Shown in pieces: positions 5,199 to 13,594 of a DNA stretch of 64,000 nucleotides (its first letter is position 1; every line of letters starts with the position of its first letter). The translations under genes were made by a program, and so were the position numbers. The stretch lies in contig NZ_AP025523.1 in the NCBI RefSeq assembly GCF_027923555.1, forward strand, positions 434,001 to 498,000, written 5' to 3'. The notes beneath the pieces are model-generated. The model did no database searches and was not told where the DNA came from. It was given only the letters and a program-made list of their open reading frames with translations. This DNA comes from Vulcanimicrobium alpinum. Lineage in GTDB: Bacteria > Vulcanimicrobiota > Vulcanimicrobiia > Vulcanimicrobiales > Vulcanimicrobiaceae.

Positions 5199-6716
5199 TT
5201 ACCGTGAGACGGCGAAGGCGGCGGCGGAGCCGACGGCGGGCGTTTCGTCGAGTTCGGTGATTGTGGCGTACTCCGCGGCGTTCAGGCGCGAGTGGTCGGT
5301 GCGCATGAAGTAAGCATACGCCAGTCCGGCGACGATGATGCTGAAGAACCAGCCGCCGGACCAGAGAAATCCGAGCGCCGGGACGACGAAGCCGATAAGC
5401 GGCGGGATCCAGCCGGCGGCGAGCGCGAGGATCGCGCGGACGTTCCAGCCGCGCGCGTAGTTGTACCGGCTCGCCGGATCGTACAAGCCCGCGAGATCGA
5501 GCCGGCGCGCGCGCACCAGCCAATAATCCGCGATCGCAATGCCGTCGAACGGACCGAGCAGCGTGCCGTACGTGCCGAGCCACGTGAACACGTAGTTGTG
5601 GAACGTCGCGAGGACGTACCACGGCTGCATCAGCAGCGCCAGCAGCCCCGTCATCACCGCGCCGATCGCAAACGTGATCGTGCGCGGCCACAGATTCTCG
5701 AATGCTCGCGCCGGCGCCATCACGTTCGCCCCGACGTTGATCGTGATCGACGAGAGAATCACGATCGCGCCGCCGAGCAGCACCACCGGGAACGGAAACG
5801 TCACCAGCAGATCGACCGGGTTCCAGAGGGCTTTCCCGTAGACCGCGACGGTCGCCGACGTCACCGCGATCCCGACGAACGAGAACAGCGCCATCACCAG
5901 CGGCATCACGAGCTGCCCGCGCAGCTGCGCCGGCTGCGATACGGCGTAACGCGAGTAATCGGGGATGTTCAGCGCGAGCGTCGCCCAGAACGCGACCACC
6001 CCGATCACCGACGGAAAGAACGCCGCCCAAAACGCCCCGCCGTGCAGTGACGCGGGCGTCGCCAGCATCGGCGCCACGCCGCCGGCGGCGTGCATCCCCC
6101 ACGCGAACAGCGCTACCGCCGCGAGTCCCAGCGTCGGCGCCGCGAACGCGGCGAGCCGCCCGATCGCCTGCGGTCCGCGCATCGCGATCCCGACGTTGAG
6201 CAGCCAGAACGCGACGAACGCGAACGCGGTGTGCGGCCCGAGCCCGCTCCAGCCCGGCGCGATGCGCGAGAGGATCGCGTCGAGCGCGAGCCCGCCGAAC
6301 CAGGCGTTGATCCCGAACCAGCCCGCGCCGATGATCGCGCGCGCGAGCGCCGGGACGTGCGCGCCGAACGTCCCGAACCACAGCCGCGCGAAGACCGGAT
6401 ACGGGAACCCGTAGCGCGTTCCGGCGTGCGCGACAAGCAGGATCGGCACCAGCACGACCGCGCTGCCGGTGAAGATCGTCAGCGTCGCTTCCCACCAGTT
6501 CATTCCGAGCGCGATCATCCCGCTGGCGAGCGAGTACGTCGGGATGCACAAGCACATCCCGATCCACAGGCTCGCAAAGCGCGAGGCGCGCCAGTTGTGC
6601 TCCTCGCGCGTGCACGGCCGCAGGTCGTCGTTCCAGAGCTCGGCGCGCTGCGACGCGGCGCTTGCGGCGCCCGGCGTCAGCGTGACGATCCCGTCGCGTT
6701 CGGCCTGCGTCACCAT
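5199..6716 (-). CDS. NCS1-family nucleobase/allantoin permease
   Basis: The product has 505 residues and about twelve hydrophobic segments, typical of nucleobase:cation symporter-1 proteins. The N-terminal NDDLRPCTREEHNWRASRFA resembles the family's pre-TM1 signature. The TM1 region (LWIGMCLCIPTYSLASGMI), the glycine-rich stretch GAGWFGINAWFGG and ALNIPDYSRYA also fit, as does GPFDGIAIADYWLVR near the C-terminus. The family imports uracil, cytosine, allantoin, hydantoins or thiamine-like compounds with Na+ or H+. The gene begins 6 bp after the beta-ureidopropionase stop and is last in the pyrimidine-degradation operon, so uracil, thymine or dihydropyrimidine uptake is the likely role. The C-terminus (VSR, TCACGGTAA) resembles the repeat-derived gene ends seen elsewhere in the window. 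Confidence 0.88.
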   Translation of the reverse strand: MVTQAERDGIVTLTPGAASAASQRAELWNDDLRPCTREEHNWRASRFASLWIGMCLCIPTYSLASGMIALGMNWWEATLTIFTGSAVVLVPILLVAHAGTRYGFPYPVFARLWFGTFGAHVPALARAIIGAGWFGINAWFGGLALDAILSRIAPGWSGLGPHTAFAFVAFWLLNVGIAMRGPQAIGRLAAFAAPTLGLAAVALFAWGMHAAGGVAPMLATPASLHGGAFWAAFFPSVIGVVAFWATLALNIPDYSRYAVSQPAQLRGQLVMPLVMALFSFVGIAVTSATVAVYGKALWNPVDLLVTFPFPVVLLGGAIVILSSITINVGANVMAPARAFENLWPRTITFAIGAVMTGLLALLMQPWYVLATFHNYVFTWLGTYGTLLGPFDGIAIADYWLVRARRLDLAGLYDPASRYNYARGWNVRAILALAAGWIPPLIGFVVPALGFLWSGGWFFSIIVAGLAYAYFMRTDHSRLNAAEYATITELDETPAVGSAAAFAVSR

Positions 6717-6722
6717 CGTGCG

Positions 6723-7607
6723 CTACACTTCTACCATCGCGCCGTACGTCTCCGGACGGCGGTCGCGATAGAACTGCCAGGTGTTGCGCACCTCTTCGAT
6801 CAGCCCGCGGTCCATCACGCCGATGAGCACTTCGTCCTGGTCGCGGCTCGCCATCGCGACGAACGAGCCGCGCGGATCGACCAGGTACGACTGTCCGTAG
6901 AACTCGCCCATGTTCCACGGCGACTCGTAGCCGACACGGTTGATCGCGCCGACGTAGTAGCCGTTGGCGACCGCATGCGCGGGCTGTTCGAGCTTCCAGA
7001 GATATTCCGAGAGCCCGGCGACCGTCGCCGACGGGTTGAAGACGATCTCCGCGCCGCCCAGGCCCAGCAGCCGCGCGCCTTCGGGGAAGTGCCGGTCGTA
7101 GCAGATGTAGACGCCGATGCGCGCGTAGCGCGTCGCGAACGTCGGGTAGCCGCTGTTGCCGGGCTTGAAGTAGTACTTCTCCCAAAAGCCGCAGCCGGCC
7201 GGTCCGGCGGCGACTTGCGGGATGTGATGCTTGCGGTAGAGGCCGAGAAACGAGCCGTCGGCGTCGATCACGGCCGCGGTGTTGTAGTACACGCCGCTGA
7301 TCGTGCGCTCGTACAGCGGAACGACGAGCGCGATCTCGAGTTCCTTCGCGAGATCCTGCATCAGCCGCGTCGTCGGCCCGTCGGGGACGTGTTCGGTCGC
7401 CTCGTACCACTTCGGGTTCTGCTCGGTGCAGAAGTACGGCCCGTAGAAGAGTTCCTGCAGGCAGACGATCTGCGCGCCGCGCCGCGCGGCGTCGCGAATC
7501 ATCGCGACGTGCTTCTCGATCGCGTTGCGCTTGTGCACCGCGACCGACTGTGCGCCGTCGGCCTCGTGATGCGCTTGGATCAGTCCGATCGTCACCGTGT
7601 CGCTCAT
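6723..7607 (-). CDS. Beta-ureidopropionase (N-carbamoyl-beta-alanine amidohydrolase), nitrilase superfamily
   Basis: This 294-residue carbon-nitrogen hydrolase has the Glu-Lys-Cys triad visible as CLQELF (Glu52), YRKHHIP (Lys126) and VYICYDRHF (Cys169). It would hydrolyse N-carbamoyl-beta-alanine (or the beta-aminoisobutyrate analogue from thymine) to the amino acid, CO2 and ammonia in the cytoplasm, the third step of reductive pyrimidine breakdown. The gene lies 10 bp downstream of hydA and 6 bp upstream of the permease on the same strand. Related N-carbamoylputrescine amidases share the fold, but the preT-preA-hydA context makes beta-ureidopropionase the best reading. Confidence 0.9.
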   Translation of the reverse strand: MSDTVTIGLIQAHHEADGAQSVAVHKRNAIEKHVAMIRDAARRGAQIVCLQELFYGPYFCTEQNPKWYEATEHVPDGPTTRLMQDLAKELEIALVVPLYERTISGVYYNTAAVIDADGSFLGLYRKHHIPQVAAGPAGCGFWEKYYFKPGNSGYPTFATRYARIGVYICYDRHFPEGARLLGLGGAEIVFNPSATVAGLSEYLWKLEQPAHAVANGYYVGAINRVGYESPWNMGEFYGQSYLVDPRGSFVAMASRDQDEVLIGVMDRGLIEEVRNTWQFYRDRRPETYGAMVEV

Positions 7608-7617
7608 CGGCGCACTC

Positions 7618-9009
7618 CTACAACTGCACCGGACGGAACGGTGCGGACTTTTGATGGATCCCGGTCCCCGGCTCGCCGGTGAACCGGCCGTCGTCGGCGA
7701 TGATCCGCCCGCGGGAGAGCACGAAGCGCGGCCGGCCGTGCACCGTCATCCCCTCGAAGATGTTGTTGTCGGCTTTCATGTGGTGCGTCGCCGCGGAGAT
7801 CGTGCGCTCGGCGCCGGGATCCCATACGACGATGTCGGCATCGCTGCCGACCGCGATCGTGCCCTTGCGCGGGAAGAGGCCGAACAGCTTGGCCGGATTC
7901 GTCGACGCCAGCGCGACGAGTTGATTCAGCCCGATCACGCCCTTCACCACGCCGTGCTCGAAGAGGATCGCCACCCGGTCTTCGATCGTCGGCGCGCCGT
8001 TGGGGATCTTCGAGAAGTCGTTCTTCCCGAGTTCTTTCTGTCCGCAGTTGTTGAACGAGCAGTGATCCGACCCGAACGCGTGGAGTTCGCCGTTCTTCAG
8101 CTTCTTGAGCAGGACGGCTTGATCGCGCTTCTCGCGCAGCGGCGGCGACATCACGTAGTTGGCGCCGGCGAAATCGGGACGGTCGTAGTCGCTCGCGTCG
8201 CACACGAGATACTGCGGGCACGTCTCGCCGTAGATCGGCAGCCCGCGCTTGCGGCCGTCGCTGATCGCGTCGGCGGCCATCGCGCTCGAGACGTGAACGA
8301 CGTAGAGCGGCGCGCCCGCGACTTCCGCCAGCCGGATCGCACGCGAGGTCGCCTCCGCCTCGAGTTCGACGGGCCGCGTGAGACCGTGATATTTCGGTGC
8401 GGTCTGCCCGGCGGATAGTGCCTCCTTGACGGTGACCTCGATGACGTCGCCGTTCTCGGCGTGCACCTGCACCAGACCGCCGTAACGCGCGGCCGCCTTG
8501 AGCACTTTGAAGATCGTCTCGTCGTCGACTTGCAGGACGTGCTTGTACGCCATGAAGACCTTGAACGAGTTGACGCCCTCGCGCGCGATCATCTCGGGGA
8601 TCTCCTCGAGCGTCTCCGGCCGCCCGTCGGCGATCGTGAGATGAAACGCGTAGTCGATCGCGGCTTTGCCGGCGGCTTTCGCGTGCCACGTCTTGAGCGC
8701 GTTCGCGAGCGAATCGCCCTTGGTATGCAGCGCGAAGTCGATGATCGTCGTCGTTCCGCCGAGCGCCGCGGCGACCGTGCCGCTGGCGAAGTCGTCGATC
8801 GTCGTCGTGCCGCCGAACGGCATGTCGAGGTGGGTGTGCGGATCGATGAACCCGGGGAAGACCAGCGCGCCCGACGCGTCGACGGTCGTATGGCCGGCGG
8901 CGGGGATCGCGTGCGCGATCGCCGCGATCGTCCCGTCCTCGATCAGGATGTCGGCGCGGAACGTGTCGGTCGCGGTGACGACCGTTCCGCCCTTTACGAT
9001 GGTACCGAT
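7618..9009 (-). CDS. hydA: Dihydropyrimidinase (D-hydantoinase), probable ATC start
   Basis: The product is about 463 residues, a normal length for this family. It ring-opens 5,6-dihydrouracil or dihydrothymine to the N-carbamoyl beta-amino acid. The binuclear-metal residues are visible: DPHTHLD (His58, His60), SFKVFMAYK (Lys150, the carboxylated bridging lysine), VHVSSAMA and GSDHCSFNN. The start is unusual. Homologues begin Met-x-x-Ile-Val-Lys-Gly-Gly, and the codon at that place (9007-9009) is ATC, with GGAGAG about 7 nt upstream. No ATG, GTG or TTG lies nearby in frame; the first in-frame ATG is past the metal-binding His pair. The gene overlaps the end of preA by 16 bp, so translation is probably coupled. 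A sequencing error (ATG read as ATC) is the alternative. Confidence 0.9.
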   Translation of the reverse strand: MGTIVKGGTVVTATDTFRADILIEDGTIAAIAHAIPAAGHTTVDASGALVFPGFIDPHTHLDMPFGGTTTIDDFASGTVAAALGGTTTIIDFALHTKGDSLANALKTWHAKAAGKAAIDYAFHLTIADGRPETLEEIPEMIAREGVNSFKVFMAYKHVLQVDDETIFKVLKAAARYGGLVQVHAENGDVIEVTVKEALSAGQTAPKYHGLTRPVELEAEATSRAIRLAEVAGAPLYVVHVSSAMAADAISDGRKRGLPIYGETCPQYLVCDASDYDRPDFAGANYVMSPPLREKRDQAVLLKKLKNGELHAFGSDHCSFNNCGQKELGKNDFSKIPNGAPTIEDRVAILFEHGVVKGVIGLNQLVALASTNPAKLFGLFPRKGTIAVGSDADIVVWDPGAERTISAATHHMKADNNIFEGMTVHGRPRFVLSRGRIIADDGRFTGEPGTGIHQKSAPFRPVQL

Positions 9010-10244
9010 AGCCGTTCTCTCCAGGTGTGGGAAGTGGTGCCGGCGTCGACCCGCACCATCTCGATGCAGTCCTCGATCGGACAGACCATGCTGCACAGGT
9101 TGCAGCCCACGCAGTGCTCTTCGTCGACGACGGGCTTCAGCGCCGGGTCGGCGGGGCGTTCGATGCACTGGTGCGCGGCGTCTTCGCAGGCGATGTAGCA
9201 GCGGTTGCAGTTGATGCACGCATCCGGGTCGATCCGCGCGACGATCTGGTAGTCGAGGTTGAGATCGTTCCAGCTCACGAAGCGCGGTACCGTCTTGCCG
9301 ATCAGGTCGTTCACCGAGGCGATCCCGCGCGCGTCGAGATAGTTCGTCAGGCCGTCGATCATGTCGGCGACGATGCGGAACCCGTGATGCATCACCGCCG
9401 TGCAGACCTGCACGTTGGTCGCACCCATCAGGAAGAACTCGGCTGCGTCGCGCCAGGTCGAGACCCCGCCGATCCCTGAGATCGGAACGCCGACCTGCGG
9501 ATCGCTCGCGCACGAACCGACCATGTTGAGCGCGATCGGCTTGACCGCCGGCCCGCAGTAACCGCCGTGCGACGACTTCCCGTCGACGTGCGGGATCGGG
9601 AGCCACGAGTCCAGATCGACGCCGATCAGCGAGTTGATCGTGTTGATCATGCTCACGGCGTCGGCTCCGCCGCGCACCGCGGCGCGCGCGGCGTAGCGCA
9701 CGTCGGTGATGTTCGGCGTGAGCTTCACGACCACGGGGACGTGCGCGGCTTCCTTCACCCAGCGCGTGACCGTCTCGATCAGTTCGGGATCCTGCCCGAC
9801 GGCGGAACCCATCCCGCGCTCCGACATCCCGTGCGGGCAGCCGAAATTCAATTCGAAGCCGTCGACCCGGACCGTTTCGACGGCGTGCACGAGTTCGTGC
9901 CAGCGCTCGCGCGTGCAGTCGGTCATCAGCGAGGCGACGATCGCACGGTCCGGATACGCCGCCTTGCACTCCGCGATCTCGCGCAGGTTCACGTCGAGCG
10001 GACGATCGGTGATGAGCTCGATGTTGTTCATCCCGATCATCTTGGTCGCGCCGACGTCGTAGCCGCCGAAACGCGAGGTGACGTTGACGATCGGTTCGAG
10101 CGCGAGCGTCTTCCACACCGCGCCGCCCCAGCCGGCGGCGAACGCGCGCATCACCTGATAGCCGGAGTTCGTCGGCGGCGCGGAGGCGAGCCAGAACGGA
10201 TTCGGGCTGCGGATCCCCGCCAGACTGCTGCGCAGATCAGCCAT
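8994..10244 (-). CDS. preA: NAD(P)-dependent dihydropyrimidine dehydrogenase, FMN/Fe-S subunit
   Basis: The 416 residues comprise an N-terminal dihydroorotate-dehydrogenase-like FMN barrel and a C-terminal two-cluster ferredoxin. Barrel markers are PFWLASAPPTNSGYQV, ELNFGCPHGMSERGMG and the active-site Cys segment SSHGGYCGPAVKPIAL. The ferredoxin motifs are CINCNRCYIACEDAAHQC and CVGCNLCSMVCPIEDC, near residues 335-390. With PreT it reduces uracil or thymine to the 5,6-dihydro compound. Its start overlaps the preT stop by 8 bp and its end overlaps hydA by 16 bp, consistent with a single translationally coupled operon. The subunit split matches bacterial PreTA, not the fused eukaryotic enzyme. 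Confidence 0.95.
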   Translation of the reverse strand: MADLRSSLAGIRSPNPFWLASAPPTNSGYQVMRAFAAGWGGAVWKTLALEPIVNVTSRFGGYDVGATKMIGMNNIELITDRPLDVNLREIAECKAAYPDRAIVASLMTDCTRERWHELVHAVETVRVDGFELNFGCPHGMSERGMGSAVGQDPELIETVTRWVKEAAHVPVVVKLTPNITDVRYAARAAVRGGADAVSMINTINSLIGVDLDSWLPIPHVDGKSSHGGYCGPAVKPIALNMVGSCASDPQVGVPISGIGGVSTWRDAAEFFLMGATNVQVCTAVMHHGFRIVADMIDGLTNYLDARGIASVNDLIGKTVPRFVSWNDLNLDYQIVARIDPDACINCNRCYIACEDAAHQCIERPADPALKPVVDEEHCVGCNLCSMVCPIEDCIEMVRVDAGTTSHTWRERLSVPS

Positions 10245-11550
10245 CGTCGACCTCCCCGCGCAGCGCCGCGTCGAGCGCGTGCGCCGCGCGCTTCCCGCGC
10301 TGCGCGGCCTCGACGACCATCGCGTCGATTCCGCCCGGCGCGAACGTGCAGTCGCCGGCGGCCCACACGCGCGGGTTGCTCGTGCGCATCTGGTCGTCGA
10401 CGGTAGCGATCCCGCGTTCGTGCGTCACCCCGAACGCGTCGAGCAATGAGGTGTGCCGCGTCTGGCCGATCGCCAGCACGACCGTCTCGGCGGGGACGAT
10501 TCGCTCCGTCCCCGGCAGCGGCGAGGCGCTGCCGTCGGGCGCAGTCGCGATCACTTCGAGCCCTGCGACGCGGCCGTCCCGAACGAGGATGCGCGTGGGC
10601 AGCGCGTAGGTGCGAAACTCGACGCCTTCGACCTTGGCGAACTCGATCTCGAACCCGTACGCCGTCATCCGCTCCGCGCCGCGGCGGTAGTACATCGTCA
10701 CCGACGGGACGCCGAGCCGGCGGGATGCGGTGGCGGCGTCGATCGCGGTATTCCCGCCGCCGATGACGGCGACGCTGTTGCCGAGCGGGCCGAGATCGCC
10801 GCCGGTCTTCGCGGCGCGGATGAAGTCGAGCGCGTCCCATACGCCGCGCGCGTCTTCGCCGGGGATGCCCAGCCGCGGGACGCCGCCCATCCCGATCGTC
10901 AGCACGACCGCATCGAAGCGCGTGAGGATCTCGTCGGCCGCGATCTTCTCGCCGACGGCCGCGCCGGTGACGATCTCGACGCCGAGCGCTCGGACCTGAT
11001 CCGCTTCCCACAACGCGATGTGCGCGGGGAGACGGAACGGGACGATCCCGTAGGTGTCCAGGCCGCCCGGCTCAGCGTCGCGTTCGTAGATCGTCACCGC
11101 GTGACCGCAGCGCGCAAGTTCGCGCGCGGCGGAGAGCCCGGCCGGACCGCCGCCGACCACCGCGACGCGCTTTCCGGTCGGCGCGCCGGGCGCGAACAGC
11201 ACGGCGCCGGTCGCGATCGCCCAGTCGGTGGCGTAGCGCTGGAGGTCTCCGATGCGGATCGGGTTCTCGTCGGCGTTGTAGACGCAGGCGCCTTCGCAGA
11301 GCTGATCGGTCGGGCAGACGCGCGCGCAGCTCGCGCCGACCGGGTTCGCGTCCATGATCGTGCGGGCGCTCCCCGCCAGATCGCCGGTGGCGATGCGGCC
11401 GATGAACCGCGGGACGTCGATCGCCGTCGGGCACGCGCGCGTGCAGGGCGCGTCGTAGCAGTTCAGACAGCGGTTGGCCTCGACGGTGACGTCGCGCGCG
11501 GAGAGCCGTTTTGCGATCGGCGGCCCGAGCGCTGCGGACGGGAATGCCAT
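10237..11550 (-). CDS. preT: NAD(P)-dependent dihydropyrimidine dehydrogenase, FAD/NAD(P) subunit
   Basis: The ATG at 11550 (MAFPSAALGPP) gives 437 residues, the usual size for PreT and the glutamate-synthase small-subunit-like family. The N-terminal Fe-S segments are CLNCYDAPCTRACPTAIDVP and CARVCPTDQLCEGACV. These are followed by an FAD dinucleotide fold (VAVVGGGPAGLSAARELA) and an NAD(P) fold (VAVIGGGNTAIDAATASRR). It passes electrons from NAD(P)H to PreA. It is the first gene of the operon preT-preA-hydA-ureidopropionase-permease. A 91-bp gap separates it from the divergent dehydrogenase at 11642 and should hold its promoter, though no clear -35/-10 pair was recognised. The frame is open further upstream, but that part overlaps the divergent gene and is not homologous. 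Confidence 0.94.
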   Translation of the reverse strand: MAFPSAALGPPIAKRLSARDVTVEANRCLNCYDAPCTRACPTAIDVPRFIGRIATGDLAGSARTIMDANPVGASCARVCPTDQLCEGACVYNADENPIRIGDLQRYATDWAIATGAVLFAPGAPTGKRVAVVGGGPAGLSAARELARCGHAVTIYERDAEPGGLDTYGIVPFRLPAHIALWEADQVRALGVEIVTGAAVGEKIAADEILTRFDAVVLTIGMGGVPRLGIPGEDARGVWDALDFIRAAKTGGDLGPLGNSVAVIGGGNTAIDAATASRRLGVPSVTMYYRRGAERMTAYGFEIEFAKVEGVEFRTYALPTRILVRDGRVAGLEVIATAPDGSASPLPGTERIVPAETVVLAIGQTRHTSLLDAFGVTHERGIATVDDQMRTSNPRVWAAGDCTFAPGGIDAMVVEAAQRGKRAAHALDAALRGEVDDG

Positions 11551-11641
11551 GGGGACCCGTTCTGTTGGCCGCGTGCCGCATCCGCTCCCGTGCGGCGCCG
11601 CGCCACAGGCGAGGCGCCGCCGGGCCGCGTACGCCATCGCG

Positions 11642-12652
11642 ATGCGAGCCGTACGAATCCACGCCATCGACCGCGAGCGCGGTCCCGAGCAATTCCGCGT
11701 CGACACGGTCGACGAGCCGGCGCCCGCGCCCGGCGAGATCCTGGTCAAGATTGCGCGCGCCGCGTTCAACCGGCGCGACGTCTTCATCAGCCAAGGCTTG
11801 TATCCGGGGATCCAGCTCCCGTGCGTCCCGGGTTCCGACGGCGTCGGAACGGTCGCGGCGCACGGAGAGGGCGCGCAGGGTCCGGCGGTCGGCACGCGCG
11901 TGGTGATCGATCCGACCTTGGGCTGGGGCGAGAGCGAGCGGATTTGGCGGCGCGACTCGCAGGTGCTCGGAATGCCGCATCAAGGGACGATGGCCGAGTA
12001 TCTCGCGGTGCCCGCCGGGAACGTCGTTCCCGCGCCGGCGTCGCTGAGCGACGACGAGGCCGCGGCGATGCCGCTCGGCGGCGTGACGGCGTACCGCGCG
12101 CTCGTGACCCGCGGCGGCTGCACGAAAGATGACGTCGTCCTCTTGCCGGGGATCGGAAGCGGCGTGCAAACGTTCGCGCTGCTGTTCGCGAAGAGGATCG
12201 GCGCGAAGGTGATCGTGACGTCGTCGAGCGACGAAAAGCTCGCACGCGCGAAAGCGCTCGGCGCCGACGTCGGGATCAACTACAAAACGTCCGAGAAGTG
12301 GGAGAAGGAGGTAAGCGCGATCGACGGCGGTCCGTCGCTGATCGTCGACTGCGTCGGCGGCGACACGTTCGCAAAAGCGCTCAACGCGGCGCGCTACGGC
12401 GCTCGCGCCGTCACCTACGGCGGAACGACCGGCGATGCGAAGATCCGCCCGTTCTCGGTGTTCTGGAAACAGCTCGACGTGCTCGGCTCGTCGATGGGCT
12501 CGCCGAACGATTTCCGCGCGATGCTCGCGATGTGGGACGGTTCGATCCGCCCGATCGTCGACTCGGTTTTTCCCATGGACGACATCGTCGCGGCCGCAAA
12601 AAAAGTCGACTCCGGCGAGCAGTTCGGCAAAGTCGTCGTCGCGGTCGGATGA
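11642..12652 (+). CDS. Zinc-type alcohol dehydrogenase-like / quinone oxidoreductase (MDR superfamily)
   Basis: The ATG at 11642 gives 336 residues (MRAVRIHAIDRERGPEQ), the usual MDR start. The GroES-like domain contains AFNRRDVFISQGLYPG and PCVPGSDGVGTV. The nucleotide-binding domain has VVLLPGIGSGVQTFALLFAK, the AxxGxGxxG-like loop, then KVIVTSSSDEKLARAKALGA. The structural-zinc cysteines of classical alcohol dehydrogenases are not apparent, so the protein is more like a zinc-less NADPH:quinone or enoyl reductase. It is divergent from the pyrimidine operon. A role in reducing malonate semialdehyde is possible but unsupported. It converges on the MBL gene with a 12-bp gap. Confidence 0.8.
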   Translation: MRAVRIHAIDRERGPEQFRVDTVDEPAPAPGEILVKIARAAFNRRDVFISQGLYPGIQLPCVPGSDGVGTVAAHGEGAQGPAVGTRVVIDPTLGWGESERIWRRDSQVLGMPHQGTMAEYLAVPAGNVVPAPASLSDDEAAAMPLGGVTAYRALVTRGGCTKDDVVLLPGIGSGVQTFALLFAKRIGAKVIVTSSSDEKLARAKALGADVGINYKTSEKWEKEVSAIDGGPSLIVDCVGGDTFAKALNAARYGARAVTYGGTTGDAKIRPFSVFWKQLDVLGSSMGSPNDFRAMLAMWDGSIRPIVDSVFPMDDIVAAAKKVDSGEQFGKVVVAVG

Positions 12653-12662
12653 CGGGAGCGGG

Positions 12663-12673
12663 GCTCAGCGTGA
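12663..12673. repeat. REP half-unit forming the MBL gene end
   Basis: GCTCAGCGTGA matches one end of the palindromic repeat. On the minus strand it encodes Ser-Arg-stop of the MBL hydrolase (TCACGCTGA). It lies at a convergent junction, like the full copies. Confidence 0.5.
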
Positions 12674-13594
12674 GAGGGTGTAGGTCCGCAGCGGCTCGGG
12701 GGTTCCGAAGCCGAGTTCGGCGCGGATGACGTCGGCGCCGCGGCCGCCGTCGAGTTTCGAGAGGTCGGGGTCGAGCAGCGCGGCTTCGTCGCGATTGGCC
12801 GCGCGCGTCGCGGCGGCGACGGCGACGCGGCCTTCGCGTTCGAGCGCGATCAGATACGCCAGCACCTGTCGCGCCGCCGCAGGCCATAGCGCGCGCGGCG
12901 TTGCGGAGTAGATGCGCGTGACGATCGCCGGGACCGTCGTCGCGCCGTCGCGCAGCGCGGCGAGGATCTGCCGCTCGCGTTCCTCGCGATGCGCGATGTA
13001 TTCGTCGAGCTTCGCGCGCACGTCATGCACCTCGGGACCGTGGCCGCCGTAAAGCGCGCGCGCGTCGCCGTGCTCCTCGCGCAGGCGCCGCAGCGTCCGC
13101 TGATACGTCCGCATCTCGCCGCTCGGCGGCGCGATCACCATGAACCCCCGGCCCGCGACCACGTCACCCGTAAAGAGCGCGCGCTCGTCTTCGAGAACGA
13201 AGACGAGATGGTCGACTGCATGCCCCGGCGTCTCGAGCGCCGCGATCGACGTCTGCGCGAACGTGAGCCGCTCGCCGTCGGCGAGCGTGCGATCGTGCGG
13301 GAAGCGCGCCTCGCGGTGCGCGTACACCGGAGCGCCGGTCGCTGCGGCGAGCGGCGCCGCTCCGGGCGCGTGATCGGGATGCCCGTGCGTCACCAGGATC
13401 GCGACGTAACGCGCTCCGGCATCGCGCGCCGCGCCGACGAACGCGTCGCGCTGGGCGTCGTCGAGCGGTCCCGGATCGATCGCGACCAGTTCGCCCTCGT
13501 CGACCCGCACCGCGTAGCCGTTCGTGCCGTCGAGCGTCATCGGAGAGGGATTGTTCGCGCGCAGTCGTCCGACGCGCGGGCTCAGCGTCACCAT
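12665..13594 (-). CDS. MBL-fold metallo-hydrolase (LACTB2-like)
   Basis: This is a 309-residue metallo-beta-lactamase-fold hydrolase. The metal motif THGHPDHAPG (HxHxDH) is preceded by NPSPMTLDGTNGYAV. LETPGHAVDHLVFVLED, ALFTGDVV and ALYGGHGPEVHDV supply further metal ligands, and a C-terminal winged-helix-like segment (REERERQILAAL to ALEREGRVAV) completes the LACTB2/YobT-type layout. Such proteins act on thioesters or RNA; the substrate is not evident here. The ATG at 13594 overlaps the NUDIX stop as ATGGTGA, so the two are translationally coupled. The last residues (TLSR) and the TGA derive from a repeat half-unit. Confidence 0.85.
   Translation of the reverse strand: MVTLSPRVGRLRANNPSPMTLDGTNGYAVRVDEGELVAIDPGPLDDAQRDAFVGAARDAGARYVAILVTHGHPDHAPGAAPLAAATGAPVYAHREARFPHDRTLADGERLTFAQTSIAALETPGHAVDHLVFVLEDERALFTGDVVAGRGFMVIAPPSGEMRTYQRTLRRLREEHGDARALYGGHGPEVHDVRAKLDEYIAHREERERQILAALRDGATTVPAIVTRIYSATPRALWPAAARQVLAYLIALEREGRVAVAAATRAANRDEAALLDPDLSKLDGGRGADVIRAELGFGTPEPLRTYTLSR

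Follow-up and report, generated by a model that had tools for sequence, protein, structure and literature searches.

The infC gene, which encodes the initiation factor IF3 and starts at AUU, is among the closest described counterparts of the hydA (dihydropyrimidinase/D-hydantoinase) gene of Vulcanimicrobium alpinum, since in both an isoleucine codon stands at the start with a good Shine-Dalgarno (SD) sequence before it. Unlike infC, hydA encodes a catabolic enzyme with no known link between its product and the choice of start codon, and it overlaps its upstream gene. Natural AUC starts are very rare, and those coupled gene pairs that have been studied mostly start at AUG or GUG. Non-canonical starts in Deinococcus deserti were reportedly found at the protein level in the proteogenomic work of Baudet et al. 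in 2010 (cited in PMC3305630); whereas those starts have protein-level reports, the support for hydA is evolutionary conservation within one orthologue family. Among 61,358 ancestral AUG starts in 36 prokaryote groups, two switches to CUG and one to AUU are listed and none to AUC (PMC5622118), in agreement with the view, taken in the original prediction for this locus, that ATC initiation is rare outside infC-type genes. AUC, AUU, AUA and CUG placed behind one 5' UTR give 0.1–0.3% of AUG activity in E. coli, but 5–20% in two clostridia with the same codons and 5' UTR (PMC9680021), hence the output of a start codon depends on the host. IF3 disfavours weak third-base pairs (PMC10158994), and because of this discrimination and of the low activity in E. 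coli, efficient use of AUC would need help. Re-initiation near a stop codon is one known setting in which an SD helps, and IF3 limits it when the SD is missing (PMC2268962).

The window analysed here comprises 64,000 nucleotides of the chromosome of V. alpinum WC8-2, a cultured isolate of the Eremiobacterota/Vulcanimicrobiota with a finished hybrid assembly (chromosome 3,508,363 bp; PMC9758169). All genes of the window discussed below lie on the minus strand. The product of hydA scores 622 bits over its full length against the TIGR02033 equivalog model (cut-off 393), with model positions 2–449 matched from residue 4, and alignments with solved D-hydantoinases begin at residues 3–5. The gene proper occupies positions 7618–9009 (463 codons from ATC plus the stop); the original prediction had the same 3' end, but its upper limit of 9030 takes in a leader of 21 nt with the ribosome-binding site. 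At the putative start the minus strand reads ...CACACCTGGAGAGAACGGCT ATC GGT ACC ATC GTA AAG GGC GGA..., with GGAGAGAACGGCT directly before the ATC (9009–9007). The SD-like GGAGAG (9017–9022) that had been noticed about 7 nt upstream is separated from the ATC by exactly 7 nt (AACGGCT), and the 16S rRNA of V. alpinum has the canonical anti-SD 3' end GGATCACCTCCTTTCT. The claim that no normal start codon is near also holds: the nearest in-frame ATG, GTG or TTG upstream is a GTG at codon -29 (window position 9096), within preA, only CTG codons (-5 and -20) intervene between it and the ATC, and the first downstream is the ATG at codon +62 (in DPHTHLDM). A start at this ATG would remove the His-x-His metal ligands, as had been pointed out. 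CTGs further in aside, the CTG at codon -5 (9022–9024) is the sole NTG of the hydA frame between codons -20 and +62.

The gene lies in an operon with the order preT-like, preA, hydA, ureidopropionase-like amidohydrolase and NCS1 transporter. This arrangement shares gene order and protein families with the PreT-PreA-HydA operons of reductive pyrimidine degradation, but there hydA starts at ATG, TTG or GTG, and the ATC start occurs in this clade only. The preA gene, for a dihydropyrimidine dehydrogenase subunit (8994–10244; 664 bits against the PreA equivalog NF006183, cut-off 335), starts at ATG in all seven relatives compared and shares its last 16 nt with hydA (9009–8994, with the preA stop TAA at 8996–8994), exactly the overlap originally described. 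Upstream, the preT-like gene for an NAD(P)-binding subunit (10237–11895) has NCBIfam matches of the glutamate-synthase small-subunit type, none above cut-off. Its homology starts near 'AFPSAALGPP' (~11470; region 11470–11895), where two relatives have TTG and one has GTG, and the long mechanical ORF upstream of the homology is probably non-coding. Downstream of hydA, the beta-ureidopropionase-like amidohydrolase (6723–7607) starts at ATG, with ATG or GTG in relatives; its matches to carbon-nitrogen hydrolase families are below cut-off, and a pydC role may be assigned to it by inference. The last gene (5199–6716) encodes an NCS1-family nucleobase transporter (TIGR00800, 294 bits, below the cut-off of 353). 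A search for other ATC starts in the 64-kb window, by rough and noisy conservation scans that do not amount to a genome census, indicates that most genes with clear conservation have a conserved NTG close to their start.

The original prediction placed the Met of homologous dihydropyrimidinases at the ATC column and proposed a comparison of orthologous operons, which bears it out. hydA is present in 38 of the 99 genomes of the family. In four genera, every one of the 13 orthologues has ATC at the start column; these sequences are related by descent and do not represent 13 independent events. They come from all nine members of the V. alpinum genus in which hydA was found, from G028 and G101 of a second genus, from G102 of a third and from G120 of a fourth. 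Of the other orthologues tabulated, mostly of the same family, 26 have ATG, GTG or TTG at this column, and in one more (L195) hydA starts two codons earlier. Within the ATC set column 0 is constant, whereas columns -1, +1, +3, +4 and +5 vary; the codon before the ATC is GCT, GCA, GCC, GAC, CAC or ACA, and one codon is gained or missing between the SD and an unchanged ATC. On the tree the ATC group takes two changes, but monophyly of the group cannot be rejected (p-AU 0.32). None of the Bacillota orthologues inspected needs ATC, as in each the column itself, or a position shortly before it, is occupied by ATG, TTG or GTG; a Paenibacillus hydA (L048) with ATA at the column was dismissed as an isoleucine start on account of an upstream in-frame ATG.

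A GGAG-type SD precedes the ATC in 13 of 13 genomes (-5.6 to -12 kcal/mol), although its conservation is not independent evidence because it sits in conserved preA codons (Trp-Arg); several ATG-starting orthologues lack any SD. Thus hydA presents the features of AUU, AUC and AUA starts, namely an isoleucine codon at the start column, an SD at working distance, and no usable ATG, GTG or TTG nearby that fits the protein family, with the caveat that four relatives have TTG or GTG at codon -5 or -6. The comparison does not reveal any selection acting on the third base, because ATC makes up 94% of the isoleucine codons in these genes: 9 of 14 invariant isoleucine columns are all-ATC, and against these columns a preference for ATC over ATT or ATA at the hydA start is not significant.

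V. alpinum ribosomes evidently use an isoleucine codon elsewhere, since infC of this species, by the same homology argument as for hydA, starts at ATA behind GGAGAG, as it does in all ten genus members read. More broadly, infC (L188, G000:C1 ~3080258; loci L161–L187) starts at ATA in most of the family, at ATC in the sister family f2 and at ATT in f3. No odd initiator tRNA was found among the 45 tRNA genes of V. alpinum located by an Rfam search, to be compared with the 54 counted in the genome paper (PMC9758169), which leaves nine unlocated; those located include one ordinary tRNA-Ile(GAU) and three CAU tRNAs, one of them initiator-like.

The preA-hydA junction resembles translationally coupled overlapping pairs, in which re-initiation operates (PMC2268962), in its close upstream stop, its SD within the upstream gene and its operon context; it differs from them in that the start is AUC and that one relative keeps AUC without the overlap. 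Wherever preA was read, its stop ends 12–15 nt after the first base of the ATC, and stop and start are thus close or overlapping, with the exception of G120. In that genome 1467 nt of other sequence separate the preA stop from the hydA ATC, which lies 5 nt after GGAGGAGG, an SD much stronger than in the overlapping relatives. The insert (L201, G120:C191, reverse strand 11557–13024; ~1.5 kb) includes a DUF29-like reading frame. In another family member, L091 (G027), preA and hydA overlap by ~17 nt and the start is TTG; such an overlap therefore does not require ATC. Folding of the junctions, in a set in which the L089 row was entered on the wrong strand, revealed no consistent conserved RNA structure that would hide the hydA start, and for 11 of the 12 sequences the z-score was positive or close to 0. 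A GATGGT/ACCATC inverted repeat, considered as a junction hairpin, appears in some folds, with energies equal to those of shuffled sequences.

Several other explanations of the ATC have to be weighed. The simplest, that the true codon is ATG and the ATC a sequencing error or polymorphism, would take a single C/G difference, but ATC is found in 13 separate assemblies and the genome of the window was finished from Illumina and PacBio data (PMC9758169), so that this explanation is so unlikely as to be negligible. Loss of the start codon in a decaying gene, with ATC as a scar, would agree with the strong drop in expression that a change from ATG to ATC normally causes; it is nevertheless highly improbable, given full-length frames, protein identities of 86–92% within the genus and 71–82% across the family, retained catalytic motifs and operon neighbours, and the strong SD before the ATC in the lone, unlinked context of G120. 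Hardly better can be said of a PreA-HydA fusion made by -1 frameshifting, or of initiation at a distant upstream codon of the open frame. In V. alpinum the hydA frame does stay open across a large part of preA (an ORF of 832 aa), but DNA of 68% GC is expected to contain long open frames that are spurious, no conserved slippery heptamer precedes the preA stop, and preA lies 1467 nt away in G120. Moreover, G028, G101 and G102 have an in-frame TGA 9–10 codons upstream of the ATC, which excludes long N-terminal extensions in those genomes. AAAGGGC, tried as a slippery heptamer, occurs in three genomes, but there it starts at the preA stop, 14 nt past the first base of the ATC.

The alternative that comes closest has HydA initiated at an NTG that lies 5 or 6 codons before the ATC, which would add an N-terminal extension of 5–6 residues to the protein. 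Such a codon is present in 12 of the 13 genomes: CTG in V. alpinum, and a normal start codon in four relatives (TTG in G002 and G006, GTG in G028 and G101); in G028, G101 and G102 a GGTGA element with moderate anti-SD energy lies 12 nt before it. In G102 a CTG is the sole NTG from the upstream TGA to codon 20, and otherwise only isoleucine codons could serve. However, the NTG is forced by the Thr-Trp of preA (ACN TGG; ACC TGG in V. alpinum), and in 8 of the 12 genomes it is CTG, itself a rare start. The GGAG site lies on it or 3' of it, and the SDs that precede it are poor in most genomes (-1.7 to -3.9 kcal/mol, the V. alpinum CTG having -1.7 kcal/mol). G120 lacks the NTG altogether, and its strong SD points at the ATC; canonical members of the HydA family have no such extension. 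A start at this position is therefore unlikely. Starts downstream fare no better, as the first NTG falls at codon 3, 10, 20, 35, 42 or 62, varying by genome, and codon 3 cannot be the common start because it is ATC, ATT, GTG, GTC or TTG, depending on the genome. Taken together, the upstream TGA of G028, G101 and G102 and the loss of overlap in G120 remove most alternative starts.

The original placement of the hydA start at the ATC (9007–9009) is thus supported by the orthologue comparison, and we estimate a probability of roughly 0.87 that, in V. alpinum and its relatives, translation of hydA begins at AUC, served by the SD and, in most species, coupled to preA. The GGAG-type SD within the last preA codons would place the 30S subunit on the AUC, and the initiator fMet-tRNA(CAU) would pair with its first two bases. 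As the preA stop lies ~10–13 nt past the AUC, the subunits that initiate there probably come from ribosomes that have just terminated on preA, a coupling that would aid the weak codon; in G120, where it is lost, the much stronger SD may take its place. The expected effect is an output of HydA that is low relative to PreA and sensitive to IF3. The codon and its conservation, the SD, the overlap and the lack of another start that fits are observed, whereas the use of AUC for initiation, the coupling, the low output and the sensitivity to IF3 are what we infer. The likeliest account of the locus is a weak hydA start that depends on its SD and is probably coupled and sensitive to IF3.

The hydA start joins the known AUU, AUC and AUA starts, among which it is unusual in belonging to a conserved catabolic enzyme gene, and also in persisting through four genera and through the loss of the overlap. 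Most gene finders skip starts other than ATG, GTG and TTG, and annotation pipelines probably either start the hydA genes of this clade too late, at the ATG 62 codons downstream, or run them back into preA. Could the AUC be kept by selection, as a throttle that acts via preA translation and IF3, or does the family tolerate AUU, AUC and AUA starts more widely? Either idea is speculative and, in our estimate, rather doubtful. If the throttle were real, a catabolic enzyme would share the start-codon control known from infC; if the tolerance were wider, further genes with AUU, AUC or AUA starts would be found unannotated in the family. The clade-wide AUC of hydA offers a clean test of bacterial tolerance of this codon and of the contributions of SD strength and coupling, and V. 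alpinum is in culture, hence its hydA start is accessible to bench work.
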